56,488 nucleotides of DNA, taken from contig CALHSA010000016.1 in NCBI GenBank assembly GCA_938038205.1, positions 1-56,488 of the forward strand, in the 5' to 3' direction. The stretch comes from an uncultured bacterium. GTDB taxonomy: Bacteria; Bdellovibrionota_C; UBA2361; JANWWW01. The position numbers and the translations under genes are program-made. A model generated the notes under the pieces. That model worked only from the letters and a program-made list of their open reading frames with translations. It was not told the DNA's origin and did not search any database. This document shows positions 29,464-47,306 of the stretch, one piece after another (the stretch's first letter is position 1; each line of letters opens with the position of its first letter).

Positions 29464-30207
29464 TCAAAGTAACAATTCCAATAGTTTGGAGTAATAGGAT
29501 GGAAAGTTACTAAGGAAGAAAAATGCAAAATAAACTCCAACTAATAGGGTAAGAGGATATCCCATAACAAAAACATTGAAAGTAGGTACAGCCTTTGATA
29601 TTAAACCCATAGCCAGGTTTACTAAAAAAATTCCACCGATCATTGGAATAGCGAATGTAAATCCTAAGGCAAATGTTTTACAAAAAAGATCAACAAGAAA
29701 TTGAGTAATCTCAGGTAAGCTTAACGAATTGAAAATTGAGGTGACATCAAGCAAAGTTTGAAAAAGAATTAAATGCCCTCCCGATGTTAAAAAAATTAGT
29801 ACTTTAAGATCTCCAAACAGTCGTGGCAACTCCCCTTGATTTTGGCCTAAAGCAGGATCAATTATACCTGCAAAATTAAGCCCAGATGAAACTCCAATCA
29901 AGTAACCCGCTAACCTGATAGAGCCAGCCAAAATCAAGGGTATTAAAGATATAGCAAAGGATTTAATACTAGTGAGAATTATTGTCTCCTCAACCGAGGA
30001 TATTGTGTAACCTCTTTGTACTTCAATTATAGTTACGCAAAAACCCACTGCAAGTATTATTGGAGCTCGTAACATAATCCCCGATACTCCTCCTCCGATT
30101 CCCGGCATAAAAATAAAAAGTACCGAAAGAGATGTAAGATTAACGATTAAAAGATTAACGAAATTTGGATCAAAAATTTTTAGTATGAATAAATTAATGT
30201 CCTCCAT
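29464..30207 (-). CDS. fliR: Flagellar export apparatus protein FliR
   Basis: This 247-residue FliR forms, with FliP and FliQ, the helical export gate core of the flagellar type III secretion system. Five to six hydrophobic segments are present, with the family blocks MPGIGGGVSGIMLRAPIILAV (residues about 35-55), IRLAGYLIG (normally R-x-A-G-x-L-I-G), and the C-terminal PMIGGIFLVNLAMGLISKAVP. The start lies 1 base after the fliQ stop. It is the last flagellar gene in this operon. Confidence 0.95.
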   Translation of the reverse strand: MEDINLFILKIFDPNFVNLLIVNLTSLSVLFIFMPGIGGGVSGIMLRAPIILAVGFCVTIIEVQRGYTISSVEETIILTSIKSFAISLIPLILAGSIRLAGYLIGVSSGLNFAGIIDPALGQNQGELPRLFGDLKVLIFLTSGGHLILFQTLLDVTSIFNSLSLPEITQFLVDLFCKTFALGFTFAIPMIGGIFLVNLAMGLISKAVPTFNVFVMGYPLTLLVGVYFAFFFLSNFPSYYSKLLELLL

Positions 30208-30208
30208 A

Positions 30209-30487
30209 TCATCTCAAAAGGTTTGCCATCTCAGGTATTCGCTCAAATAAAAAAATACTTAAATTCATTAACCTTGCTAAAATAAAATTTCCAAACAAAA
30301 ACAATCCAACAAATGTGGCTATTATTTTCAAAACAAAAGCTAGAGTAGCATCTTGTATTTGAGTTAGTGACTGGAAAATACTAACGCTTAAACCTACAAT
30401 AAGCCCTATTGTAATCAAAGGAGCCAGAACCCACATGCCATCTAACAACGCTTTCTGAACACTCGAGAGAACAAAAGTTTCAATCAT
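30209..30487 (-). CDS. fliQ: Flagellar export apparatus protein FliQ
   Basis: This 92-residue protein has two membrane hairpin helices (MWVLAPLITIGLIVGLSVSIFQ and VLKIIATFVGLFLFGNFIL, described as segments about 19-40 and 50-70) separated by the FliQ loop SLTQIQDATLAF. Four copies join FliP and FliR in the gate. It starts right after fliP and is of normal length. Confidence 0.95.
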   Translation of the reverse strand: MIETFVLSSVQKALLDGMWVLAPLITIGLIVGLSVSIFQSLTQIQDATLAFVLKIIATFVGLFLFGNFILARLMNLSIFLFERIPEMANLLR

Positions 30488-31207
30488 TTAAATTTGATAG
30501 CTTTGAAGTACATTCAAAATAATGAGACGCCATCCATCAATCAGAACAAATAACATTAGTTTTATGGGCAGAGATATAACAATGGGCGGGAGAGTAATCA
30601 TGCTCATTGAAGCTAAAACCGAAGCAACAACTAAATCAATTATTAGAAAAGGTACAGCAACAAAAAATCCAATACTAAAAGCAAGAGTTATTTCAGATAT
30701 AACAAAAGCCGGTAAAAGGGTTGAGATAGGAATATCTTCAGGATTACTAAAAGCAATTTTTTCATTAGCTCCAGCACTAATTCTCATGAATAGTTCTAAA
30801 TCTTTTTCCCTTACATTATTTAGCATGAACTTTTTAAATGGCTTAAAAGCCTCCGATAAAGCCTCTTGTTCAACCTTGGTTCCATCAAGAAAGGGTTTAA
30901 TACCCGAATTGTAACTCTGTTGAAACACCGGTGACATTAAAGCAAAGGTTAAAAAAATCGCTAATCCCGTGAGAACTATGTTTGGAGGACTACCCTGCAA
31001 CCCAAGCGATGTTCGTAGCAAACCAAAAATGATTATGAATCTTGTAAAGCTTGTCATTGTCATGAGAATAGCTGGACCAAACGACAAAAGGGTAAAAATA
31101 CCCATTAGCTTAATTACCCCAGACATTTGACCTTGGGGAATATTAATCGATAATATTGAATCTTGGGCGAAAACAGGTAAGACTAAAACAGCAAAATACT
31201 TTATCAT
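30488..31207 (-). CDS. fliP: Flagellar export apparatus protein FliP
   Basis: This 239-residue protein has a cleavable signal (MIKYFAVLVLPVFAQ). The FliP blocks follow: FTLLSFGPAILMTMTSFTRFIII (residues about 39-61), LRTSLGLQGSPPNIVLTGLA, FMLNNVREKDLELF, TLLPAFVISEIT and the C-terminal MITLPPIVISLPIKLMLFVLIDGW (about 201-224). Five copies nucleate the export gate. The start overlaps fliN by 4 bases. The small fliO gene usual between fliN and fliP is absent. Confidence 0.96.
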   Translation of the reverse strand: MIKYFAVLVLPVFAQDSILSINIPQGQMSGVIKLMGIFTLLSFGPAILMTMTSFTRFIIIFGLLRTSLGLQGSPPNIVLTGLAIFLTFALMSPVFQQSYNSGIKPFLDGTKVEQEALSEAFKPFKKFMLNNVREKDLELFMRISAGANEKIAFSNPEDIPISTLLPAFVISEITLAFSIGFFVAVPFLIIDLVVASVLASMSMITLPPIVISLPIKLMLFVLIDGWRLIILNVLQSYQI

Positions 31208-31557
31208 TTAGCCGCCTCTAATCTTGCTTCAGGAGATGCAATATCCGTAATTCTCACTCCAAATTTTTCGTTAACCACAACTGCCTCTCCTCTAGCAATA
31301 AGCTTTCCATTCACATATATATCCAGTGGTTCACCTGCAGGTTTCTCGAGCTCAATAACAGATCCCTGACCAAACTGTAAAATATCTTGAATACTTAATT
31401 TTGTCCTACTTAACTCAACTGTAACTGTAAGATTTACATCCAAAAGAAGGTTCAAATTCCCTCCCTTTGTTTGTGTTAGATTCAATGCTACATTTTGAAC
31501 GTTAGCTGCGGCTTCAGCAACCTTTTCCAAATCTTCAATAGTTTTTTCTTCACTCAT
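31204..31557 (-). CDS. fliN: Flagellar motor switch protein FliN
   Basis: This 117-residue protein has a short charged N-terminus followed by the SpoA/C-ring domain: LLLDVNLTVTVELSRTKL, ILQFGQGSVIELEKPAGEPLDIYVNGKLIARGEAVVVNEKFGVRITDI (quoted as blocks at residues about 35-52 and 60-108). It forms the lower C-ring with FliM. A strong Shine-Dalgarno sequence, GGAGGTG, lies 6 bases before its ATG. It sits directly after fliM with a 3-base gap. Confidence 0.95.
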   Translation of the reverse strand: MSEEKTIEDLEKVAEAAANVQNVALNLTQTKGGNLNLLLDVNLTVTVELSRTKLSIQDILQFGQGSVIELEKPAGEPLDIYVNGKLIARGEAVVVNEKFGVRITDIASPEARLEAAK

Positions 31558-31560
31558 AAG

Positions 31561-32574
31561 TTACACCTCCAAATCATTTCTAAGTTTTACCAAATCATGT
31601 TCAGGTATTTGCCTTGTTATTTTTGCTGCTTTGAATCCTCTATATTGACCAGAGATGGCATAAAATTTAGGTTTATCCTCGATGAAAACCACCGCTTCAT
31701 CATTTGGGGCATTTTTAAGCTGAATAACATCTCCAACCTTTAACTCTAAAAGTTTGGTTAGATTTATTCTACCGTATCCTACTTGTACTCTAACCTCAGC
31801 TGGAGCCTCTAAGATTATAGTTTTGATTCTCTCTTTTAATGAATCGTCTACTTCTAACCTTGTACTTTGAAATGATGTAGTTAATTTATGCTTTAAAGGA
31901 TCTATTGTGGAGTAAGGAATACAAATTTGAAGAGAAGCCATCTCTTGCTCTAATTCAATCTCAACATTTACAACAATCAAAGCCTCAGTTGGCGGCACAA
32001 TAGCTATAGCGAGAGGGTTAAACTCGCTTCGAACATAGATAAAGTCAACGGGTTGAACAGGAGCCCAGGCATCTCGTAGATTATCGAGGGCTAACATTAC
32101 CAATTTACCAACTAACCTGTTTTCAATAGCAGTATATTCTCTTCCTTCTACCTTAATCTTGCCTGAGCTGTTTCCTCCAAAAAGCACCTCTACCACACCA
32201 AAAATTAATTGTGCTGAGGCGATTAAAAATGCATAACCAGGTAACGGTGGCATTCGAAATATGTGAATGCTTGATGGTAACGGAAGTTTTTTCATAAAAG
32301 CACCAAATTTAACTAATTCAATCCCAACAACGTTGGCGAAACATGTTCTTCCAAGAAACTTCGATAAAGTACTTCGATACTGTCTCGCAAATCTGTCATG
32401 TATAAGTTCGATGGTCGGCATGCGACCTCGAACAATTCTTTCTTGATTAGATAAATCATATTTCCGGATATTTTTACGCTGATTATCAACTTCAATTAAA
32501 CCCTCCTCGATATCTGTCTCAGAGAGGCCTTTAATTAGAGAGTTTATTTCATCTTGAGTTAGAACGTCATTCAT
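31561..32574 (-). CDS. fliM: Flagellar motor switch protein FliM
   Basis: This 337-residue protein begins with the CheY-binding peptide region and LTQDEINSLI (normally LSQDEIDALL). The middle domain follows, with TIELIHDRFARQYRSTLS, then GGNSSGKIKVEGREYT (the GG..G loop) and PLAIAIVPPTEALIVVNVEIELE. The C-terminal SpoA domain includes VRVQVGYGRINLTKLLELKVGDVIQL. All switch-complex elements are intact. It overlaps fliL by 4 bases. Confidence 0.96.
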   Translation of the reverse strand: MNDVLTQDEINSLIKGLSETDIEEGLIEVDNQRKNIRKYDLSNQERIVRGRMPTIELIHDRFARQYRSTLSKFLGRTCFANVVGIELVKFGAFMKKLPLPSSIHIFRMPPLPGYAFLIASAQLIFGVVEVLFGGNSSGKIKVEGREYTAIENRLVGKLVMLALDNLRDAWAPVQPVDFIYVRSEFNPLAIAIVPPTEALIVVNVEIELEQEMASLQICIPYSTIDPLKHKLTTSFQSTRLEVDDSLKERIKTIILEAPAEVRVQVGYGRINLTKLLELKVGDVIQLKNAPNDEAVVFIEDKPKFYAISGQYRGFKAAKITRQIPEHDLVKLRNDLEV

Positions 32575-33041
32575 TGAGCTACCAATTCAAGGAAAAATAT
32601 ATCTTCAACAGAGTCAATACCAATCACGGATTTAATAGTAGAGATTAAAGTTTTTTTTAATTCTTGACGTGAATCAGGGTTTATTATTTCTGACGAAGAT
32701 TTGGTGTTAAATAGTGTAATAATTTTATCTCTTAATTCATACTCCTTCGAGAAAAAAACATTCGGGATCTCTTTTTGAAATTTAATTGCTAGCGTAAAGC
32801 GTAAAAATCTACCATCTTTTAAATTAACAGTAAAAGGATTTAATGGGTATGCCAAACCTAACACGACTTCATCTTGACTGATTTCTTCATACTGCACCTC
32901 GCCCACTTGTTCTTCCTCCAATTCAACCTTTTTTGAATGCCAAAAGAATAATCCTACCGAAAGTAAACCAAGACAAAGGGAAACAATAATTCCAAGAACA
33001 ATAAATTTTTTTTTGCTAGTTTTCTCGTTTTCCTCGGCCAT
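32571..33041 (-). CDS. fliL: Flagellar basal-body-associated protein FliL
   Basis: This 156-residue protein has a Lys-rich cytoplasmic N-terminus, one membrane helix (FIVLGIIVSLCLGLLSVGLFF, about residues 14-34), and a periplasmic domain with PLNPFTVNLKDGRFLRFTLAI and a KTLISTIKSVIG C-terminal region. FliL rings surround MotAB stators. Here it overlaps the preceding mini-MotB-like gene by 26 bases, which keeps stator genes and fliL together. Confidence 0.9.
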   Translation of the reverse strand: MAEENEKTSKKKFIVLGIIVSLCLGLLSVGLFFWHSKKVELEEEQVGEVQYEEISQDEVVLGLAYPLNPFTVNLKDGRFLRFTLAIKFQKEIPNVFFSKEYELRDKIITLFNTKSSSEIINPDSRQELKKTLISTIKSVIGIDSVEDIFFLELVAQ

Positions 33042-33222
33042 ACTCTTGAAGCATCAGGTCAAAATTTTGACCTTTTAAAACTATGTATTCAATTTTCATG
33101 CCCGAATCACCCTCTTTTTTCCTTATTAATTTCCAAGTATTTCCAGAATCAAAATTTAGTGATCTCAAATTCACTAGAACGATGATTAAGAGCACATCTA
33201 AAAAGGAGATTATCCAATTCAC
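33016..33222 (-). CDS. Mini-MotB-like stator subunit without OmpA domain (68 aa)
   Basis: This protein has one N-terminal membrane helix with motif WIISFLD (Trp3, Asp9). The spacing Trp-x5-Asp equals MotB (WKIAYAD in E. coli), where the Asp is the proton-binding residue. After the helix only about 45 residues remain, with no plug or OmpA-like peptidoglycan-binding domain (MotB is usually 250-310 residues). The start GTG overlaps the upstream stop (GTGA) and its end overlaps fliL by 26 bases, which supports translation. Adjacency to motA fits. Alternatives are an unrelated single-pass protein or an ExbD-type subunit; a full-length MotB may lie elsewhere. Confidence 0.55.
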   Translation of the reverse strand: MNWIISFLDVLLIIVLVNLRSLNFDSGNTWKLIRKKEGDSGMKIEYIVLKGQNFDLMLQEYGRGKREN

Positions 33223-33473
33223 TTTCTAAAAATTATTAACGGCTTTGATATGTCAGATAGATAAACTCTGTTTCCCCTTTTGTGAATTCTGTTTGAGATT
33301 AACTTGTATCTTTTCTGTTTAGGGAGAACGAACTCTACATCTGCTTTACGATATCCAAATTTCCGAATTTCTGATACACTAATTGGAAGAGCATAAACTT
33401 GTTGATAATTAGCGACTGAAACTATTGATGTTAGAATTAAAAAAAAACTTAAATTAATTATGTTTAACTGCAT
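33219..33473 (-). CDS. Small secreted protein of unknown function (84 aa)
   Basis: An ATG at 33473 gives a signal peptide (INLSFFLILTSIVSVANYQ, about residues 5-24) followed by about 60 basic residues with KFGYRKADVEFVLPKQKRYK and RGNRVYLSDISKP. I do not recognise the family. It lies between motA (20-base overlap) and the mini-MotB-like gene (GTGA overlap), so it is part of the stator operon. A periplasmic partner of the stator is possible. A longer start at 33521 would run into motA and lose the signal peptide. Confidence 0.6.
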   Translation of the reverse strand: MQLNIINLSFFLILTSIVSVANYQQVYALPISVSEIRKFGYRKADVEFVLPKQKRYKLISNRIHKRGNRVYLSDISKPLIIFRK

Positions 33474-34218
33474 TTCTATAACCAGATAAGTGTTCCTCCA
33501 GATAAATTGAGTGCAAACCATCTCTTAATTTAATTAAACCAGAGAAGGTTACCTCATAACTTAGCTCAAGGTGTTCAAGTTTTTGTTTAAAATGCTGATA
33601 TAGCGGGATGAAAAAAAAGTTTGCAAGGATGGCACCATAAAGAGTAGTTAACACGGCATGACTAATAGCTGTAGGATGAGAATTCATTGACAAACCGATT
33701 AATGTACCAATTAACCCAACTCCAGGACTTACATTAGCCCCAAAATTCAATAAATCTAAAAATCTTCTATTCCTATTCTTCAAAGTTTGGATCTCAGCTT
33801 TTAGCGCCTCCTCAAGTTTAAACTCTGGACCCGGATTATCAGCGATTATTCTAAGCCCTTTACGGATAAACTGATCATTAAATTTTTTTTGAAATTGCTC
33901 ACAAACTGTAAAACCCTTTCTTTTAATCTGCTCATTTATGTATATAAGCTCGTTTATCCTCGTTGAAATATCACAAATCCTTCTTGTATCTGCTACAATA
34001 TCAAGCGCTTCACGCAAATTAAAGCCACCTAAAAGCATTATGCAACACACCCCAGAAAAAACACTAAAAAAAGCCAGTGGATTAAAAAGATTTGAGATTG
34101 AAAAACCAAATTGAGCGCCAGTGGATATGAAAAATAAAGTTAAAAATCCAACAAAAATTAAAAACCGAATGTCAAAAAAATGAGATCTCACTACAAAACA
34201 AGATAATGAAAAAAACAT
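33454..34218 (-). CDS. motA: MotA-like flagellar stator protein
   Basis: The ATG at 34218 gives 254 residues; a longer start to 34305 would overlap the divergent flhB. Four hydrophobic segments and two hallmarks are present: NFGANVSPGVGLIGTLIG (conserved channel Pro) and TTLYGAILANFFFIPLYQHF (second conserved Pro). The stretch between these blocks is only about 15 residues versus about 25 in typical MotA. The large cytoplasmic loop with GGFNLREALDIVADTRR and ADNPGPEFKLEEAL is present but diverged. It is most likely a proton-driven stator subunit acting with the mini-MotB-like protein. Confidence 0.85.
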   Translation of the reverse strand: MFFSLSCFVVRSHFFDIRFLIFVGFLTLFFISTGAQFGFSISNLFNPLAFFSVFSGVCCIMLLGGFNLREALDIVADTRRICDISTRINELIYINEQIKRKGFTVCEQFQKKFNDQFIRKGLRIIADNPGPEFKLEEALKAEIQTLKNRNRRFLDLLNFGANVSPGVGLIGTLIGLSMNSHPTAISHAVLTTLYGAILANFFFIPLYQHFKQKLEHLELSYEVTFSGLIKLRDGLHSIYLEEHLSGYRNAVKHN

Positions 34219-34281: not shown

Positions 34282-35355
34282 ATGGCTGAAGAAGATGACA
34301 TCCAATCCAAAACAGAGGATCCAACTGAACGGCGACTAGAGGAGCTAGCTCGGTTAGGACAATTGTTTGTCTCAAATGAGTTTAGTGCAGCCATTGCTTT
34401 CCTTATTGGTTCAATTGTTATTTATTTTGTCGTTCCAAATCTCTTCGCAACCATAACAGATATTTCTCGTTTTTACTTTTCATACTCGAAAAACCTAGAG
34501 GATTTGACAGTAAGTAACTTAGAAATACTTCCCGTTTTCAAAGTTTTTGGGGTACTAATAGTTATACTTTTAACCTTTCCTTTGGTATCAGTAGCAATAA
34601 GTTTGCTCCAAACGAAAGGAAACTTTAAAGAAAACTGGTTTAACTTAAACTTTAATGCCTTAAATCCTCTAAATGGATTAAAAAGAATCTTCTCTCTTCA
34701 GAATTTTTTTAATTTCTCTAAATCGGTGATTAAGTTACTTATTCTCGCAACATTTTTTTATTTTGCTTTCAAAGATGATGTTAAAGAGATAATTTTTTCC
34801 AAATCTTCAAATATCAATTTTTTAGCCCTAAATTTAAGTTGGTTAGCTTACAAAATACTGATTAACGGAGCAATCATACTTTTGATTTTTGGAACGATTG
34901 ATCTATCAGTAGGTTACTTACTATGGCTTAGACAAAATAGGATGACTAAACAAGAGGTGAAGGATGACAGGAGAGCTAGTGAGGGAGATGAGGTAGTAAA
35001 GAGAAAAATACTCTCAAAATCAGCTGCTAGGATACTACAACAAATTAAGAAAAACCTAGCAACTGCTACCGTTGTCGTAACAAATCCAACTCATTACGCT
35101 GTAGCTCTTAGATACATTAGTGGTAAAGATTCAGCACCAGTTGTTGTTGCAAAAGGCGTAGATTTTTTGGCTCTTAAAATCAGATCTTTGGCTGTGGAAT
35201 ACGGCATTCCAATTGTTGAAAGACCATCTTTAGCAAGAGCTTTATACAAAAGGTTAAAAATTGGTCAACAAATACCAGTAGAGTTCTTTAAGGTGGTAGC
35301 AGAAGTAATTGCCTTTGTATTTAAAACTCAAAACAAAAAACCAAAAGCGGTATGA
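34282..35355 (+). CDS. flhB: Flagellar export apparatus protein FlhB
   Basis: This 357-residue protein starts EDDIQSKTEDPTERRLEEL and has four membrane helices. The cytoplasmic domain contains MTKQEVKDDRR and the autocleavage motif NPTH in TNPTHYAVALRY at about residue 269, where FlhB cuts itself to switch export specificity. C-terminal blocks include APVVVAKGVDFLALKIR and ERPSLARALYK. It is divergent from motA with a 63-base gap and overlaps flhA by 4 bases. Confidence 0.96.
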   Translation: MAEEDDIQSKTEDPTERRLEELARLGQLFVSNEFSAAIAFLIGSIVIYFVVPNLFATITDISRFYFSYSKNLEDLTVSNLEILPVFKVFGVLIVILLTFPLVSVAISLLQTKGNFKENWFNLNFNALNPLNGLKRIFSLQNFFNFSKSVIKLLILATFFYFAFKDDVKEIIFSKSSNINFLALNLSWLAYKILINGAIILLIFGTIDLSVGYLLWLRQNRMTKQEVKDDRRASEGDEVVKRKILSKSAARILQQIKKNLATATVVVTNPTHYAVALRYISGKDSAPVVVAKGVDFLALKIRSLAVEYGIPIVERPSLARALYKRLKIGQQIPVEFFKVVAEVIAFVFKTQNKKPKAV

Positions 35356-37484
35356 GCCCTCAAAGAGTTATTGAATCATTACTTCCGCTTGCTTTGATTT
35401 TCGTTCTGACAATTTTACTTTTCCCAATGCCAGGTTGGTTTCTCGATTTTTGCTTGGCGGCAAATATAGTAATTGCTTTTGTTATATTGTTTGTTTCACT
35501 ATATGTTGAAAAACCGATAGAGTTCTCAGTTTATCCGTCACTACTTTTGATAACTACCGTATTTCGTTTAGCCTTAAATGTAGCTACAACCAGAAGAATA
35601 CTTCTTGATGGTAATCAAGGGCTTGACGTTGCTGGTGAATTAATAAAGGCCTTTGGTCAGTTTTTAATCCAAGGGAATTTTGTGGTTGGATTAATAATCT
35701 TTTTAATAATAAGTATCATAAATTTAAAAGTTATTACAAAAGGAGCCGGTAGGATCGCTGAAGTAGCTGCTAGATTTACTCTAGATGCAATGCCTGGTAA
35801 ACAGATGTCAATCGATTCAGATCTTAGTGCCGGCATAATTACCGAACAGGAAGCAAGATTAAGAAGACAACAATTAGCACGTGAAGCAGAGTTTTATGGT
35901 GCGATGGATGGAGCGGCTAAATTTGTTTCTGGCGAAGCTCTCACTGGGATATTCATCATGTTGTTAAACATCATTGGCGGCTTTTCAATCGGCTATTTTC
36001 AACATAATATGAGCTTATCTGAAGCTACACAAACTTTCACAGTTCTTACTGTGGGAGATGGTCTTCTTAGTCAGATACCAGCAATAATAATATCAGTTTC
36101 TGCTGGTTTAATAGTTTCCAGAGCAGCATCAGGAGAACATTTCAGCTTAGAGATACTAAGTCAGCTTGGAAAGACTATTTGGCCGTTACTTTTTGCCTCT
36201 ACAGCAACTGTTATGATAGGCCTTTTGCCTGGCTTGCCTTTTGTTCCATTCTTGGTAACTGGGATCATAGTGGGAATTCTAGCCTACATTAAAAGTAGAC
36301 AACAAAGAAAACTAGCTATGCAGAAACTAAAAGAGCAAAATCAAAAATCAGAAGAACCAGATCCAGAAAAAATGCTAACAACTGAAGATTTACTCAAACT
36401 GATGGAAGTAAGCCCAATTAGAATTGAAATAGGCGTAAACTTAGGATTAGCTATAGGCACAACGGCTATTAATGAAAGAACTCGGAAAATAAGATTTCAA
36501 TTAGCATCTAGATTTGGTTTTATTTGCCCTCAGCTTTATGTTACAACAACAAGGAGTGATAGAAGAGATACAAAAGATCCGTTAAAAATCCTCATCAAAG
36601 GTAGATTAGTTTTTGAGACGAGAATAGATACTGTTAGAGTTTTAGCAATTATGCCTCCACATCAAAAACAGCAAGAGAATGTACCCGATCTTGAAGGAGA
36701 GATATTTTATGACCCAATTTACAAGATTAAGGGGTTCCTGATAAACAAGGAAGATACTATTTACGCAAAGAGCCTTCATTACTATATCTCAGATCAAGCA
36801 GCACAATTTGCCACCTGCGTGACAGAAGTACTTATGTTACATATGCACGAACTGCTTCGTCGACAAGATGTGCACCTAATTATATCAAAGATTCAAAAAG
36901 AATTCCCAAGGTTAGTTGAGGATATAATACCTCAACATATATCGTTAGCTCAGATTCATCAAATACTGTCAAAATTACTCTATGAGTTTGTATCAATTAG
37001 GGATATGCAAACTATCCTAGAGTCTCTAGGTGAAATAGCCCCACTAACAAAAAACATAGATATGATGACTGAGTATGTCAGGAAAAGAGTTATAAAAGGA
37101 TCTCTTCAAACTTTATATGAGAACAATCTCTTTTTAAGAGTTGTAAACATAGATCCCCGGTTAGAACAGGCTATTCGGAATTCAATTATTGAGAAGGAGG
37201 ATTCAAGAAAATTTAATCCAAACCAAAGTCTAGCACTACCATTAGTTAACAGAATTGGCTCATTGTACGAACAGGAACTTCAATTAACGTCTTATTTAGC
37301 TGTTTTAGTTCCACAAGATATTAGACAACCTCTTAGTATGTGGCTAAAAGAGCAGTTTCCAAGAGTTCTGGTTATATCACCCGATGAGATACCCTATGGT
37401 TTAACAGTTAAGGCTATCGGAACAATCGGACTTGATGATCAAAAATCAGAGGAAGTGGGGAATAATTTGGCGGTAAGTATATGA
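35352..37484 (+). CDS. flhA: Flagellar export apparatus protein FlhA
   Basis: This 710-residue protein has eight N-terminal membrane segments with the FHIPEP block SLLLITTVFRLALNVATTR and ARFTLDAMPGKQMSIDSDLSAGII (positions about 64-82 and 138-161). A long cytoplasmic domain binds export chaperones. The length is normal. It overlaps flhB and flhG by 4 bases each. The flhF gene often found next is missing here. Confidence 0.97.
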   Translation: MSPQRVIESLLPLALIFVLTILLFPMPGWFLDFCLAANIVIAFVILFVSLYVEKPIEFSVYPSLLLITTVFRLALNVATTRRILLDGNQGLDVAGELIKAFGQFLIQGNFVVGLIIFLIISIINLKVITKGAGRIAEVAARFTLDAMPGKQMSIDSDLSAGIITEQEARLRRQQLAREAEFYGAMDGAAKFVSGEALTGIFIMLLNIIGGFSIGYFQHNMSLSEATQTFTVLTVGDGLLSQIPAIIISVSAGLIVSRAASGEHFSLEILSQLGKTIWPLLFASTATVMIGLLPGLPFVPFLVTGIIVGILAYIKSRQQRKLAMQKLKEQNQKSEEPDPEKMLTTEDLLKLMEVSPIRIEIGVNLGLAIGTTAINERTRKIRFQLASRFGFICPQLYVTTTRSDRRDTKDPLKILIKGRLVFETRIDTVRVLAIMPPHQKQQENVPDLEGEIFYDPIYKIKGFLINKEDTIYAKSLHYYISDQAAQFATCVTEVLMLHMHELLRRQDVHLIISKIQKEFPRLVEDIIPQHISLAQIHQILSKLLYEFVSIRDMQTILESLGEIAPLTKNIDMMTEYVRKRVIKGSLQTLYENNLFLRVVNIDPRLEQAIRNSIIEKEDSRKFNPNQSLALPLVNRIGSLYEQELQLTSYLAVLVPQDIRQPLSMWLKEQFPRVLVISPDEIPYGLTVKAIGTIGLDDQKSEEVGNNLAVSI

Positions 37485-38257
37485 TCTCTAAAGTAGTTGC
37501 TGTTTGTTCAGGAAAAGGGGGAGTAGGTAAAACAAACATCTGTGTAAATCTTGCTCTTGCTTTAACTGATCTCGGTCGAAAAGTTTTACTTATTGACCTA
37601 GATTTTGGTTTAGCGAATGCAGAGATACTTTTAGGAATTAAGCCACTTAAAACTTTCAAAGACTTGAAGGAGGAAAACTTTGATTTTTCAAAATTGATAA
37701 CACGCGGTCTTTGGGGGATCGATTTTATAAGTGGCGGAAGAGGCTTTTCCTGGCTTAATAACTTAACACCTGAGGATAGAAGAAACCTACTAATATCGTG
37801 GAGAAATTTCGTTTCAGATTATGAAATAGTAATTCTTGACACAGCACCAAGCATAAACCTTGACAATATATTATTTTTAAAAAATGCTGATCTCATCGCT
37901 TTAGTATCAACAACCGAAGCTCCAGCACTTTTAGATGCATATGTTAGCATGAAAACTCTTTTCTCAGTACTAAAGATAAGCAAGTTCGGTCTACTACTAA
38001 ATAAGACCTCTAATTTTTCTCAAGCAAAAGCTATTTTTAAAAACTTCTTTACGTGTACTATGGAACGCTTAAACGTTAGACTTGGATATCTGGGAAACAT
38101 ACCTTATGATGAGAGTGTAAAACATGCAGTGAATGATCAAAAACCATTTTATCTAACTTTTCCTAACTCACTCGCATCAAAATCCATTAGTAGAAGTGCG
38201 GATTTGTTGATGGAGGAATTACTAATAACAACGGATGAAGTTTCCATTGAACCATGA
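37481..38257 (+). CDS. flhG: Flagellar number regulator FlhG/FleN/YlxH (MinD-like ATPase)
   Basis: This 258-residue MinD/ParA ATPase has the deviant Walker A CSGKGGVGKTN (8-18), the Walker A' LIDLDFGLANAEILLGI (DFGLAN is the FlhG signature) and Walker B IVILDTAPSIN. It limits flagellar number and placement, usually with FlhF, which is not between flhA and flhG here. The N-terminal DQAxxLR FleQ-binding motif is absent, as the protein starts directly at the P-loop. Confidence 0.92.
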   Translation: MISKVVAVCSGKGGVGKTNICVNLALALTDLGRKVLLIDLDFGLANAEILLGIKPLKTFKDLKEENFDFSKLITRGLWGIDFISGGRGFSWLNNLTPEDRRNLLISWRNFVSDYEIVILDTAPSINLDNILFLKNADLIALVSTTEAPALLDAYVSMKTLFSVLKISKFGLLLNKTSNFSQAKAIFKNFFTCTMERLNVRLGYLGNIPYDESVKHAVNDQKPFYLTFPNSLASKSISRSADLLMEELLITTDEVSIEP

Positions 38258-38451
38258 ATACACAAATAAAAAAATTCGCAGGTTTTGTATCCGTGTTAGG
38301 TAGTATTTTTATCACAGTAAATGGTATCTTTTCTGGAGTTACTACTTTTCAAATAGGAGTAAGATTGCTTGTTTGGTTTTCAGTAACGTTTATATTTTTT
38401 AAACTTTTAGAAGTTGTTATGAAGTTTGGAGTATCTTCAAATGAAGAGTAG
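38254..38451 (+). CDS. Small membrane protein between flhG and fliA (65 aa)
   Basis: This 65-residue protein has two hydrophobic helices (FAGFVSVLGSIFITVNGIFSG and LLVWFSVTFIFFKLLEVVM, as residues 8-28 and 38-56) and short charged ends. It overlaps flhG by 4 bases and fliA by 11, so it is certainly inside the operon. I do not recognise a named family. A location-based role in the flagellar regulon is only inferred. Confidence 0.7.
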   Translation: MNTQIKKFAGFVSVLGSIFITVNGIFSGVTTFQIGVRLLVWFSVTFIFFKLLEVVMKFGVSSNEE

Positions 38452-39166
38452 TTTAACTGAGTTAGATAAAGAGGAACTTATTAATCAATACCTTCCTTTG
38501 GTAAAGAGAATTTCTGCAAAGTTTATGCATAAACTGCCCCCATCAATCGAATTGAGAGACATTGTAAATGCTGGTATAAACGGCTTACTGGAAGCGGCAG
38601 AGAGATTTGATGATAGTTTAGATTCAAGCTTTGAGGCTTTTGCATATCATAGGATTCGTGGAGCTATTTTAGATTATTTAAGGGCTTGTGATTGGTTACC
38701 TCGAAGTATACGCTCGAGAATGCACAAACTAGAAAAAGCTTACCTGATGGTTGAGCAAAAACTTGGTAGGCAAGCTACTGAGGAAGAAGTTGCTAAAGAA
38801 CTAGGCATCACAGTTGAGGAATTTCGGGATCTTTTGGGTGATGTTAGTAATATTGTTATGCTAAGCTTCGAGGAGCTTGGATTTGGAAAAGGAGAAGATC
38901 GTTTTTGGAGTAAAGATGAATCATCAACTGTGCCTCTAGATAATGTTTTAGATCAGGAGCTTGTTGATATTATCGCAAGGGCGCTGGATAGGCTACCTGA
39001 AAGAGAGAGAATGGTACTGATTCTTTATTTTTACGAGGAATTAAATCTTAAAGAAATTAGTGAGGTGCTTAATTTAACTGAGAGCAGGGTTAGTCAGCTT
39101 CGAGCAAGCGGTTTGTTAAGACTTAAAGTGTATCTTCGAAAAAGCCTTGGGATTATAAAGGATTAG
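38441..39166 (+). CDS. fliA: Flagellar sigma factor FliA (sigma-28)
   Basis: The ATG at 38441 has a GGAG sequence about 9 bases upstream and gives 241 residues. Group 3 sigma regions are visible: YLPLVKRISAKF, LRDIVNAGINGLLEAAERFD, SSFEAFAYHRIRGAILDYLRACDWLPRSIR (quoted as region 2, residues about 60-90), ATEEEVAKELGI in region 3, and LPERERMVLILYFYEELNLKEISEVL with ESRVSQL in region 4. It directs late flagellar promoters. It converges on the HerA-type gene with a 14-base overlap. Confidence 0.95.
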   Translation: MKSSLTELDKEELINQYLPLVKRISAKFMHKLPPSIELRDIVNAGINGLLEAAERFDDSLDSSFEAFAYHRIRGAILDYLRACDWLPRSIRSRMHKLEKAYLMVEQKLGRQATEEEVAKELGITVEEFRDLLGDVSNIVMLSFEELGFGKGEDRFWSKDESSTVPLDNVLDQELVDIIARALDRLPERERMVLILYFYEELNLKEISEVLNLTESRVSQLRASGLLRLKVYLRKSLGIIKD

Positions 39167-42896: not shown

Positions 42897-44846
42897 ATGA
42901 ATGTGGAAACTAAAGGTTATAAAGACGAGATACTTAATATTATTGAGGCAGACCGAGAACGCAGAAAAAAAACAGAGTGGAGAGGAACGGTTTTAGATTA
43001 TATTGAGTTGGTTAAAAAAAATCCAAAAATTGTCCAATCGGCTCACGAGAGGATCTTTAACATGATTGTAGAGCATGGCGTAAGGGAGCCTGACTACGAT
43101 GCTAACCCTAAGCTTAAAAGAATCTTTGGTAATCAAAAGATTAAAATTTACAACTTCTTTGCCTCTGAGTTCTTTGGCTTAGAGAAGACGATACAGAATT
43201 TAGTGCGATATTTTCAATCTGCTGCCTTAAAGGGGGAAGAAAGCAGACAAGTATTATTTTTAGTTGGCCCGGTTGGCTCAGGCAAAAGTTCATTGGTTGA
43301 GAGAATCAAGAGAGGGCTTGAAGCTTTAGATCCATTCTACGCTCTTGAAGATGACCCAATGTTTAGCGAACCTTTAACTATCATACCAAGACATTTAAGA
43401 CCTCAATTTGAAGAAATACTTGGAGTAAAAATTGAAGGCGATATTAACCCTGTAGTGAGGTATCGACTCTTAAACGAATTTAAAGGTAAATGGGAGAATT
43501 ACCCTGTTGCAACTTACTCTTTTTCAATAAGAGCCAGAAGAGGTATTGGAGTGGTGCCACCAGTGGATCCTAACAATCAAGATACTAGCGTTTTAATCGG
43601 AAGTGAGGATATATCCAAACTTGACAAATACTCTGAAGGAGACCCTCGTGTTTTAGATTTAACGGGAGCACTTAATAGAGGCAACCGAGGACTTGTCGAG
43701 TTTATTGAGATTTTTAAGAATGAAGTTGAGTATTTACACACTATTATTACGGCAACACAAGAAAAAAGCATTCCTGCTCCTGGAAGGCATGGAATGATTT
43801 ACGTAGATACGTGCATTATTGCACATTCGAATGAAAGTGAGTGGAAAAAGTTTCGATCAGATCCAACCAACGAAGCAATACTGGATAGATTAGTGATTTT
43901 AAAAGTACCTTATAACCTGAGGCTTGATGAGGAGATAAAAATTTATCGCAAAATTCTACGAAACTCAAATTTTAAAGCTGATATTGCCCCAAATACGTTA
44001 GAGATTGCTGCTATGTTTGCTATTTTATCTAGGCTTGAGCCTACAAATAAATGTGATTTATTAACCAAGCTTAAACTTTACAATGGTGAGGAAGTAATTG
44101 AAAAAGGAAAAACTAAAAAAATAGATGTACAAGAGTTGATGAGCGAGGCAAAAAACGAGGGAATGCACGGCATCTCTACCCGCTTTATAATGAAAGCCAT
44201 CGATAATGCACTCTCTGATAACATAGAGCTTAATTGTATCCATCCTTTATCTGTCAAAGAGTCTTTGATAAATATGGTTAGAGAGGGTGATTTTCCAGAA
44301 GATCAAAAAAAACATTTATTAGAACTTTTACAAGATACTATCCACAAAGAATATTTGCGACTGTTAGAACAAGATATAACGAAAGCCTTCGTGTATTCAT
44401 TTGAGGAACAAGCTGAGGCACTCTTCCAGAACTACTTGGATCACGCTGAAGCGTATGTAACTCGGAAAAAAGTTAAAGATAAATCAACGGGAGAAGACCT
44501 TGATCCTGATGAAAACTTTTTAAGGAGTATAGAAGAGGCGATTGGTATCACTGGATCAGCTTGCGATAATTTTAGACAAGAGGTCATAGCTTATCTCTGG
44601 TCTGCTCTTCGAAGGAACGAGAAATTAACTTACAAATCTTATGAGCCTTTAAGACAAGGTATTGAAAATAAATTGATGTTCTCTGTAAGGGATCTAGTTC
44701 GAATTACAACCAAAGCAACCACAAGAGATGAAGAGCAAAAAGAGAGATATGACAAAATAACTAAACAAATGATTGAGATGGGGTATCCTCCAAACTGTAT
44801 CGATATTTTACTCAAATTCGCAGCAAATAATCTTTGGAAGGATTAA
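42897..44846 (+). CDS. prkA: PrkA/YeaG-type serine protein kinase (AAA+)
   Basis: This 649-residue protein has the PrkA blocks. The N-terminal AAA domain carries VGPVGSGKSSLVERI at about 121-135, and YVDTCIIAHSNESEW marks the motor region. A C-terminal kinase-like domain follows (ISTRFIMKAIDNAL, DEEQKERYDKITKQMIEMGYP). YeaG-type kinases act in starvation and nitrogen-stress responses. The operon continues with the DUF444 protein (overlap 1 base) and SpoVR, the conserved triad yeaG-yeaH-ycgB. No Shine-Dalgarno sequence is seen before the ATG. Substrates are not inferable. Confidence 0.95.
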   Translation: MNVETKGYKDEILNIIEADRERRKKTEWRGTVLDYIELVKKNPKIVQSAHERIFNMIVEHGVREPDYDANPKLKRIFGNQKIKIYNFFASEFFGLEKTIQNLVRYFQSAALKGEESRQVLFLVGPVGSGKSSLVERIKRGLEALDPFYALEDDPMFSEPLTIIPRHLRPQFEEILGVKIEGDINPVVRYRLLNEFKGKWENYPVATYSFSIRARRGIGVVPPVDPNNQDTSVLIGSEDISKLDKYSEGDPRVLDLTGALNRGNRGLVEFIEIFKNEVEYLHTIITATQEKSIPAPGRHGMIYVDTCIIAHSNESEWKKFRSDPTNEAILDRLVILKVPYNLRLDEEIKIYRKILRNSNFKADIAPNTLEIAAMFAILSRLEPTNKCDLLTKLKLYNGEEVIEKGKTKKIDVQELMSEAKNEGMHGISTRFIMKAIDNALSDNIELNCIHPLSVKESLINMVREGDFPEDQKKHLLELLQDTIHKEYLRLLEQDITKAFVYSFEEQAEALFQNYLDHAEAYVTRKKVKDKSTGEDLDPDENFLRSIEEAIGITGSACDNFRQEVIAYLWSALRRNEKLTYKSYEPLRQGIENKLMFSVRDLVRITTKATTRDEEQKERYDKITKQMIEMGYPPNCIDILLKFAANNLWKD

Positions 44847-45985
44847 TGTGCGCTATTTTTCGGGACACAGCCGATACTGACCTATCGGATCAAACTGCAA
44901 AAGATAGAAGGCGACACTTAGAAAAAGTAAAACAGTCAATAAGGGATAATATTGGTGAAATAATAGCTGAGGAATCAATAATTGGACAAAATAAAGATAA
45001 GCTCATCAAGGTACCTATCAAGACAATTAAGGAATTTAGGTTTATATTTGGTGATAACTCAAACCGAGTCGCTCAGGGAAATGGTAAACAATCTGTGGGG
45101 GATGTGTTTGAATCCTCTCCCGAAACAAAAGACTCTATCGGGCCAGCAGGTGACCAGCCCGGGATAGATGCGCTTGAAACCGAGATTACTCTTGAAGAGT
45201 TGATTGACATAATGTTTGATGACTTACAGCTACCAGATCTTGAGAAAAAGAAACTAAAAAAAATAATCAGCAAGTCTGGACTAAAAAGAAAAGGCCATAG
45301 GAAACAAGGTATACGACCACGATTAGATAAGAGATTAAGCGCAAAGAATAGAGTGAAAAGAAAAATAGCCAGTAAATCAAGTGAACCAGATTTTCCTTTT
45401 CATGAAAGAGATCTCAGATATTTTTTTGTCAAACCCAAGCCTAAAGAGTCAGTAAATGCAGTGACAATTTGCATAATGGATACTTCTGGATCAATGACAA
45501 CGACAAAAAAGTATCTAGCAAGAAGTTTTTACTTTCTTCTGTATAATTTTATTCGATCAAAATATGAAAACTCAGAGATAGTATTCATAGCCCATCATAC
45601 TGAAGCTAAAGAGGTATCCGAATTAGAGTTCTTTCATAGGGTGGAGTCAGGAGGTACGTACATTTCCTCAGGTTATGAAAAAGCTATTGAAATTATCTTT
45701 TCAAGGTATCATCCCTCCTCATGGAACATATACGTTTTTCATTGTTCAGACGGAGATAATTACTACTCGGACAACGAGAGAGCAGTGCAATTAGCAGAGG
45801 AATTATGTAAGTATTGTAATCTATTCGGTTATGGGGAGATAAAACCTCATGGCTCTAGTTATTATAGTGGTACAATGCTAGACATTTATTCCAGAATAAA
45901 CAGGAGCAATTTTCACACTGTTCTAATACAAACAAAAGAAGATATTTATCCAGCACTAAGAGATTTCTTATCAAGAGAAAAATAG
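44846..45985 (+). CDS. YeaH/DUF444 von Willebrand factor A-domain protein
   Basis: The ATG at 44846 overlaps the prkA stop by one base (TAATG) and has GGAAGG 5 bases upstream, so this start is preferred over the TTG at 44834. The 379-residue protein has a charged N-terminal half (FRDTADTDLSDQTAKDRRRH) and a DUF444 VWA domain with the MIDAS motif DTSGSM at about 211-216. The C-terminal blocks are SGGTYISSGYEKA and HCSDGDNYYSDN. It is the partner of PrkA and SpoVR in a widely conserved stress operon. Confidence 0.93.
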   Translation: MCAIFRDTADTDLSDQTAKDRRRHLEKVKQSIRDNIGEIIAEESIIGQNKDKLIKVPIKTIKEFRFIFGDNSNRVAQGNGKQSVGDVFESSPETKDSIGPAGDQPGIDALETEITLEELIDIMFDDLQLPDLEKKKLKKIISKSGLKRKGHRKQGIRPRLDKRLSAKNRVKRKIASKSSEPDFPFHERDLRYFFVKPKPKESVNAVTICIMDTSGSMTTTKKYLARSFYFLLYNFIRSKYENSEIVFIAHHTEAKEVSELEFFHRVESGGTYISSGYEKAIEIIFSRYHPSSWNIYVFHCSDGDNYYSDNERAVQLAEELCKYCNLFGYGEIKPHGSSYYSGTMLDIYSRINRSNFHTVLIQTKEDIYPALRDFLSREK

Positions 45986-45986
45986 T

Positions 45987-47306
45987 ATGTATTCCTTAGA
46001 GTATTGGGATGAGAGAATTCTTGAAATTGTTAAAAAACTTGAGTTAGATACATATGACCAAGAGTTCCTTGTTGTTAATCACAATCAGATGATTGGATAC
46101 ATTGCATATGGAGGAATGCCTTCAAGATATAGTCACTGGTCCTTTGGGAAAGCTTACGAGAGAACTAAATCTTTATATTCATATGGTGTTACAGGACTAC
46201 CATATGAGATGGTGATCAACTCCGATCCATGTCTTGCATATTTAATGAAAGACAACTCATTATGTTTACAAATTCTTACAATAGCCCACGTTTATGGTCA
46301 CAATAACTTCTTTAAAGTTAATCAGTATTTCGTCAATTCTCCAGTTAAAGCAAAAGATGCATTATACATGTTCAAGATTCACGCAAGAATGGTAAAAGAG
46401 TTCATTGAAGATCCTTCGATTGGATTAGATCAGGTTGAAAGTACGATTGACCACGCTCACTGCTTACGATTTCATAACTCATCAAATTACTTAATTAAAG
46501 CATCACCCGAACAGGAAAAAAATATATTTGGTTTTGATCTCAGAGAGAATCTTCTTGGATTTATTGCTAAGAACTCTAAAAGTTTAAAGGATTGGCAGAG
46601 ATACCTACTAGAAATGATCGAGAAAGAGAGTTTTTATTTTCTGCCACAGTTGGAAACAAAAATAATGAATGAAGGTTGGGCATCACTTATTCATTACATA
46701 ATTTTAAAGCAATTGAATTTACCTCCGGATTTACATTTAGAGTTTATTGTAAATCACTCACAAGTTTTAAAGCCCAGTTTTGGAAGTTTAAATCCATATC
46801 ACATTGGCTTTGTGATCTTATCAAGAATATACTCCTCCATCTCTGGAGATTTTGACCCGCATAAAATAACAAGTGACGATCCTGGTTTTATTTCATTAAA
46901 AAAAATTATTTCTGAGGAAAGAGACTCATCGTTTCTTCGAAGGTTCCTTACAAAGGAATTAGCAGAGGAACTGTACCTTTTTGAGCATTCAAAAAAAGGT
47001 AAAAATAGGGTTGTGTCCCGTTTACCAAACTGTGATGATTACAACTCTTTTAGGGAGACTTTAATCAAACAAATAGGTATGTTAAGTATTCCCAAAATAG
47101 TTGTTAAAGATATTCTGCCTTCGAATACTCTTATTTTAGAGCACCGTTTTGATGACAGAGAATTAAATTTAGAGTGGGCAGAGAAAACTCTAAAATCAAT
47201 TCACTGGCTATGGGGCAATGATTGTATTTTGGAAACAATTTTAAATGGAAACAAAGTTCTTTTAAAATGCACAAATAACGAGGTTAAAATTGAAAAACTT
47301 AGTTAA
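45987..47306 (+). CDS. SpoVR/YcgB-family protein
   Basis: This 439-residue protein matches SpoVR throughout: GGMPSRYSHWSFGKAYERTK, INSDPCLAYLMKDNSL, IAHVYGHNNFFKVN, ENLLGFIAKNS (ERNLLYFIAKN-like), KIMNEGWASLIHYII and LNPYHIGFVIL. The His and Glu residues in these blocks are invariant in the family, though the biochemical role is unknown. It is the third gene of the PrkA triad, starting one base after yeaH. It converges on the ABC exporter gene with an 8-base overlap. Confidence 0.95.
   Translation: MYSLEYWDERILEIVKKLELDTYDQEFLVVNHNQMIGYIAYGGMPSRYSHWSFGKAYERTKSLYSYGVTGLPYEMVINSDPCLAYLMKDNSLCLQILTIAHVYGHNNFFKVNQYFVNSPVKAKDALYMFKIHARMVKEFIEDPSIGLDQVESTIDHAHCLRFHNSSNYLIKASPEQEKNIFGFDLRENLLGFIAKNSKSLKDWQRYLLEMIEKESFYFLPQLETKIMNEGWASLIHYIILKQLNLPPDLHLEFIVNHSQVLKPSFGSLNPYHIGFVILSRIYSSISGDFDPHKITSDDPGFISLKKIISEERDSSFLRRFLTKELAEELYLFEHSKKGKNRVVSRLPNCDDYNSFRETLIKQIGMLSIPKIVVKDILPSNTLILEHRFDDRELNLEWAEKTLKSIHWLWGNDCILETILNGNKVLLKCTNNEVKIEKLS

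Follow-up and report, generated by a model that had tools for sequence, protein, structure and literature searches.

A putative second, reduced flagellar stator with a truncated MotB-type helix in an uncultured bacterium of Bdellovibrionota_C

A flagellar gene cluster with a stator-type gene trio

The DNA studied here, referred to as the window, is a stretch of 56,488 nt from an uncultured bacterium of Bdellovibrionota_C (contig CALHSA010000016.1). On its minus strand, a motA-like gene (33454..34218) encoding a MotA/PomA-type A subunit of 254 aa (PF01618, E=5.3e-15) is followed by a gene for an 84-aa protein with a hydrophobic N-terminus (33219..33473), by a gene for a 68-aa protein with a single MotB-type helix, hereafter mini-B (33016..33222), and then by fliL (32571..33041; PF03748, E=9e-16), fliM (31561..32574; PF02154, E=1.4e-53), fliN (31204..31557; PF01052, E=1.6e-27) and fliP-fliQ-fliR (29464..31207; fliP by PF00813). 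The genes of this run have overlapping ends. The 84-aa gene overlaps motA by 20 nt and the mini-B gene overlaps fliL by 26 nt, and at the junction between the 84-aa and mini-B genes the start GTG at 33222 and the stop TGA at 33219 overlap as GTGA. The positions given for the first three reading frames in the original prediction (34218-33454, 33473-33219 and 33222-33016, all on the minus strand) were correct, as was their GTGA coupling, and the call of a stator locus is supported.

Divergently from motA, flhB-flhA-flhG-(65-aa ORF)-fliA occupy the plus strand (34282..39166), with flhG being of ParA type. Within the window, Pfam supports FliL, FliM, FliN, FliP and the MotA-like protein; the other flagellar names, e.g. 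fliQ, fliR, flhB, flhA and fliA, were assigned from sequence and gene order. G001 (L035), which represents a second genus of the window's family, shares this layout, its two small proteins being 88 and 66 aa long, and it also has the flhB-flhA-flhG-fliA order.

Some further features of the window were noted. The flhA gene directly overlaps flhG at 37481-37484 with no flhF in between; the usual order is flhA-flhF-flhG. A conserved two-helix membrane protein of 63-65 aa is encoded between flhG and fliA in both genera (window 38254-38451; L035:735-926), and it matches DUF6814 weakly (E 0.006, below the cut-off). Further along, at 42897-47306, consecutive genes resemble those for a PrkA-type AAA kinase, a YeaH/VWA-type protein and SpoVR, as read from the sequences by eye.

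Mini-B and the MotA-like protein

Mini-B starts with MNWIISFLDVLL and contains the channel motif WIISFLD (33196..33216, minus strand), in which Trp3 and Asp9 have the Trp-x5-Asp spacing that had been predicted. The AlphaFold2 model of the single chain showed one confident helix (residues 3-25) and nothing confident afterwards, including no confident second helix; the tail may still hold a cryptic fold. About 40 residues follow the helix. The expected absence of a plug and of a peptidoglycan-binding domain was borne out, as Pfam gave no match of mini-B to the plug (PF13677), to OmpA (PF00691) or to any other domain even at E<=10; the NCBIfam search gave no match for mini-B or for the 84-aa protein.

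Single-sequence searches with mini-B gave weak results. When a helix-only profile was compared with 185 ORFs of the window, mini-B ranked first and the 84-aa ORF second, with E values of only about 0.2 (mini-B E=0.22), too weak to be taken as proof. Together with the empty Pfam result, this is what speaks for an unrelated single-pass protein carrying Trp-x5-Asp by chance. Across all six reading frames, the window contains a single match to the pattern, against 0.14 occurrences expected per shuffled window and 9e-5 per 68 residues. A two-sequence profile built from the window and G001 proteins gave E=4.1e-5 against the profile of the corresponding proteins in other families, with the Trp and the Asp of both profiles in register, and controls with small membrane proteins and neighbouring gene products gave E >=0.04 (best control match E 0.04). 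In the relatives, the gene immediately before fliL encodes a product of 145-280 aa that opens with a helix such as WLVSFGDLLTLLLCFFL; we call this product B. An alignment of 14 B proteins (window, the 66-aa protein of G001 and 12 relatives of the phylum) contained Trp3 and Asp9 as its sole invariant columns, an invariance that is partly circular since the B genes were collected partly by the Trp/Asp pattern; selecting simply the gene upstream of fliL yielded the same B set plus G021, which the pattern had missed. With the family profile match, the conserved place beside fliL, the invariant Trp and Asp and a MotA in the same operon all against it, a chance motif is highly improbable, and the profile match and the alignment have already largely refuted it.

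By sequence, then, mini-B is a truncated relative of the membrane helix of MotB. We file it as such and not as a MotB, because the plug and the OmpA domain, the two defining features of MotB, are missing; it may function like MotB despite the missing domains. Codon positions show constraint on the protein. Identities between the window and G001 at first, second and third codon positions were 44/72/38 for mini-B and 51/74/33 for MotA. With the layout repeated in a second genus, and with much higher conservation at second than at third codon positions, the coding sequences are real. The 84-aa gene showed the weakest constraint of the stator trio (39/60/34).

The MotA-like protein scored 55.7 bits against PF01618, for which the curated cut-off is 22.9. 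In 20 MotA sequences (window and 19 relatives) the pore prolines P165 and P205, the TM4 threonine T192 and the stretch G168-T172 were invariant, which confirms the predicted retention of both channel prolines. A K-x-x-G-x4-E motif (KRKGFTVCE) was matched by eye to the rotor-facing R90/E98 of E. coli, with Lys replacing Arg. The closest NCBIfam models were MotP/PomA, all under their curated cut-offs; the ion may be either Na+ or H+. The periplasmic TM3-TM4 loop (33664..33690, minus strand) is indeed shortened, by 8 residues and not by about 10 as predicted, when compared with relatives outside the family, and in the MotA alignment this gap is confined to the sequences of the window and L035. 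Crosslinks in Vibrio connect the large periplasmic loop of PomA with the plug of PomB (PMC9093738). Loss of the MotA loop together with loss of the plug would thus be what a plugless stator allows.

Operons with two MotB-type genes and the place of the 84-aa protein

The gene order of the window was compared with that of related genomes. About 30 of them have the same order, with B directly upstream of fliL, and the conserved operon reads motA - B' - B - fliL - fliM, where B' denotes the product encoded between motA and B. The window matches this order, with the 84-aa protein in the B' slot and fliN following. In G002, G008, G013, L060, L097, L106, L109 and L122, B' is clearly recognisable as a paralogue of MotB and has an OmpA-like domain, yet there is no Asp in its helix (e.g. 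FTVPFTSLTTILLCFF and WQSIYCSLVLILVAFF). Within the window's class, Asp was missing in 28 of 29 proteins that are B' or hold its position. Profiles of B and B' matched each other at E=7e-10, the Asp of B lying opposite a Ser of B', which makes the two families homologous. Asp-less B' proteins of other phyla match both the MotB_plug and the OmpA Pfam models. Even a degenerate B' (L055) was predicted to consist of a helix and a beta-alpha-beta-alpha-beta-beta domain, with pLDDT above 90 over most of the domain, whose best structural matches were OmpA, TagL and MotB (Z about 10-11). The one B' with a helix Asp (FIILFTDLSIILLTF) was found in G029 (L029:771-1430); it is nested among Asp-less B' in the tree, and its Asp was either retained or regained.

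In a sample of 80 named loci fetched by MotA similarity, with operon classes counted by hand, 25 operons had two Bs of which one was Asp-less (12 of the 25 lie on contigs of the window's phylum or match such contigs), seven had two Asp-bearing Bs (Desulfovibrio, Omnitrophota), and 29 had a single B, always with Trp-x5-Asp. The arrangement recurs in Myxococcota/"Deltaproteobacteria" and in Planctomycetota; the named relatives are filed under Deltaproteobacteria, Bdellovibrionales, Dadabacteria and others. In the Desulfovibrio and Omnitrophota loci (L059, L061, L077, L086, L087, L096 and L056), Trp and Asp are present in each of the two tandem MotBs.

In a tree of 55 B sequences, the B' of the window's class formed one clade with those of Myxococcota/Deltaproteobacteria-like, Methylomirabilis and unplaced loci (support 95/96, which may partly reflect the common loss of Trp and Asp). 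When the membrane-helix columns were removed, the single B' clade was no longer seen, nor was it rejected (p-AU 0.43). An old duplication with loss of Asp likely lies behind B', as far as the sequences indicate. The Asp-less B proteins of Planctomycetota fell outside this clade on long branches; judged from this placement they apparently arose independently and are a possible second case of an Asp-less B. In three of the Planctomycetota loci (L057, L065, L127) the order is reversed, the Asp-bearing B coming first and the Asp-less B, with YCSIMTLLLAFF, second.

The 84-aa protein of the window and its 88-aa counterpart stand between motA and B, i.e. exactly in the B' slot of approximately 28 relatives. 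The 84-aa protein has no Asp in its hydrophobic segment. No similarity to B' was detectable, neither the 84- nor the 88-aa protein giving a significant match to the B' profile (E 0.13; best control E 0.04). On account of its position, the 84-aa protein most likely indicates the site of the second MotB paralogue, the one lacking Asp. It had been predicted as secreted; a hydrophobic N-terminus is present, but secretion is just one reading of it, as the relatives have a MotB-like protein with a membrane anchor at this place. Instead of a B' remnant, the protein could be a displaced FliO or a small membrane protein of unrelated origin, a less probable but quite credible identity. Neither the window (31204-31207) nor G001 (L035) has fliO between fliN and fliP, where the gene usually lies and where most relatives carry it, and FliO was not found in the window genome (81% complete). 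The match of the 84- and 88-aa proteins to the FliO profile (E 0.11) is also not significant and is as weak as that to B', PF04347 (FliO) gave no match, and the Pfam and NCBIfam searches with the protein were empty. Against this identity stand the slot itself, which is that of B' in the relatives, and the normal place of FliO after fliN.

Compared with these relatives, B declines in length from about 200-280 aa via 145 aa (G003) to 66-68 aa in the window's family, and the product at the B' place from about 160-270 aa via 111 aa (G003) to 84-88 aa. The extreme form is known from two genomes, which belong to two genera of one family and are 81% and 85% complete. Going by these comparisons, the window's family is the reduced end of the two-B arrangement, with no plug, no peptidoglycan domain and a MotA loop that is shorter at the site a plug would occupy.

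A possible stator and its relation to known systems

The window assembly (1.22 Mb, 46 contigs, 81% complete) contains three genes of the MotA/ExbB family, namely the MotA of the window, an ExbB beside ExbD- and TonB-like genes, and a canonical motA. The latter forms a motA-motB pair on contig 19; its MotB carries WKIAYAD and a plug (PF13677, E=3e-19) and is OmpA-like at the C-terminus. The genome also encodes FliG and several proteins of the flagellin family, and most genomes of the window's class have, in addition to the set in the fli operon, a MotB elsewhere that matches the plug strongly. With the canonical pair on another contig, the mini-stator is a supplementary set, and a clamped stator is available to the cell. 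The original prediction would have taken mini-B for an unrelated protein if a canonical pair existed and Trp3 and Asp9 were lost among homologues; the pair exists, but the residues are invariant.

We consider it somewhat more likely than not that the locus is a second, reduced flagellar stator descended from the motA - B' - B - fliL - fliM operon with two Bs. The canonical motAB could supply all torque, and the set of the window might then be a vestige decaying through genome reduction. The small genome, the stepwise loss of domains and the poor conservation of the 84-aa protein (26% identity) would fit such decay. We regard it as unlikely, because the overlapping reading frames are intact in two genera, Trp/Asp and the MotA pore residues are retained, identity in mini-B and MotA is 72-74% at the second codon position versus 33-38% at the third, and the loss of the MotA loop pairs with that of the plug, as in adaptation rather than decay.

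For a working stator of this kind, the best supported arrangement, as judged from the sequences, is a MotA ring around an axle containing mini-B, with Asp9 binding the ion and torque being exerted on FliG. In the ancestral operon, B would bear the ion-binding Asp and B' would be a MotB paralogue lacking it; in the window's family, only the channel helix and approximately 40 residues of B would be left, and B' would have become a short protein of the membrane or periplasm, probably the 84-aa one. The axle around which five MotA subunits rotate would consist of two B-type helices. As mini-B alone would supply an ion site (Asp9), the two half-cycles of the rotary mechanism would not be equivalent. 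MotA, with its FliG-facing charged residues retained, would drive the rotor. Since neither B has a plug or a peptidoglycan domain, holding of the axle and gating of the channel would have to come from outside and may have been handed over to other proteins, most likely the FliL ring, whose gene comes next in the operon, with or without periplasmic scaffold proteins.

We put forward only tentatively, as a possibility short of an even chance, that such an asymmetric axle, with one Asp-bearing and one Asp-less helix per MotA ring and one ion site instead of two, is widespread in Myxococcota/Deltaproteobacteria-like bacteria, and that the window's family has a plugless version held by FliL or another scaffold and lacking a peptidoglycan grip of its own. 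It is somewhat doubtful, yet conceivable, that no single heteromeric axle exists. MotA would then assemble with two copies of B (two Asp), and B' or the 84-aa protein would act separately, modulating assembly as a regulator, chaperone or placeholder. Both members of the Desulfovibrio and Omnitrophota pairs have Asp, so a heterodimer does not follow from the presence of two B genes. In Aquifex, MotB1 and MotB2 were each paired with MotA and tested separately, and chimeras joining either of them to the periplasmic part of the E. coli protein were functional (PMC4525482). However, B' keeps a MotB-type helix and an OmpA domain, and many lineages co-encode it in a tight gene order; loss of Asp with all else retained would suit a partner relying on B for the ion site.

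We judge the set of the window to be a variant of the MotAB stator, with a presumably heteromeric B and, to judge from its sequence, no anchoring by MotB. With MotAB/PomAB (PF01618 + PF13677 + PF00691) it has in common the pore prolines of MotA, the rotor-facing charges, the Trp-x5-Asp of the B helix and an operon with fliL and switch genes; unlike them, the window set lacks the plug and the OmpA peptidoglycan domain and has a MotA loop shorter by 8 residues, and the operon type has two unlike Bs. Aquifex aeolicus likewise has one motA followed by two motB genes (motA/motB1/motB2), whose products are 97% identical in the N-terminal and membrane regions and differ in their periplasmic parts (PMC4525482). 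In contrast, the second B of the two-B operon has no Asp, and the window's family has lost the periplasmic domain in both. The Myxococcus gliding motor AglR/AglQ/AglS also combines one MotA homologue with two MotB homologues (PMC9389320, PMC9120999), but it is not flagellar; AglQ and AglS are both described with the conserved Asp, and heterodimer formation between them is described as not known (PMC9389320). The Desulfovibrio operons with tandem motB (L059, L061, L086, L087) have motA, two MotBs and then fliL/fliM as here, with Trp and Asp kept in both. In Campylobacter jejuni, MotB does not touch peptidoglycan and the stators are held by FliL, PflA, PflB and cage proteins (PMC11870540). This likeness concerns a stator without MotB-peptidoglycan contact, whereas the C. 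jejuni MotB keeps its periplasmic domain.

A published Asp-less flagellar B, or a natural MotB without a periplasmic domain, was not found in the open-access literature of PubMed Central, and the two-part version, in which just one of two MotB-type subunits keeps the ion-binding acid, is apparently undescribed. Current models of 5:2 MotAB rotation assume two equivalent MotB helices with alternating aspartates. A natural stator with an Asp-less second B would show directly whether one ion site suffices, and the reduced form of the window would test whether torque needs peptidoglycan binding by MotB or whether this role can be handed over to FliL or a scaffold. In environmental lineages, two-B operons occur often enough to matter when MotB is assigned by proximity. 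A MotAB survey of 2025 describes such an assignment, with the gene that directly follows motA taken as MotB, and no discussion of tandem Bs was found in it (PMC12505986); in two-B operons, surveys of this type would pick the Asp-less one.
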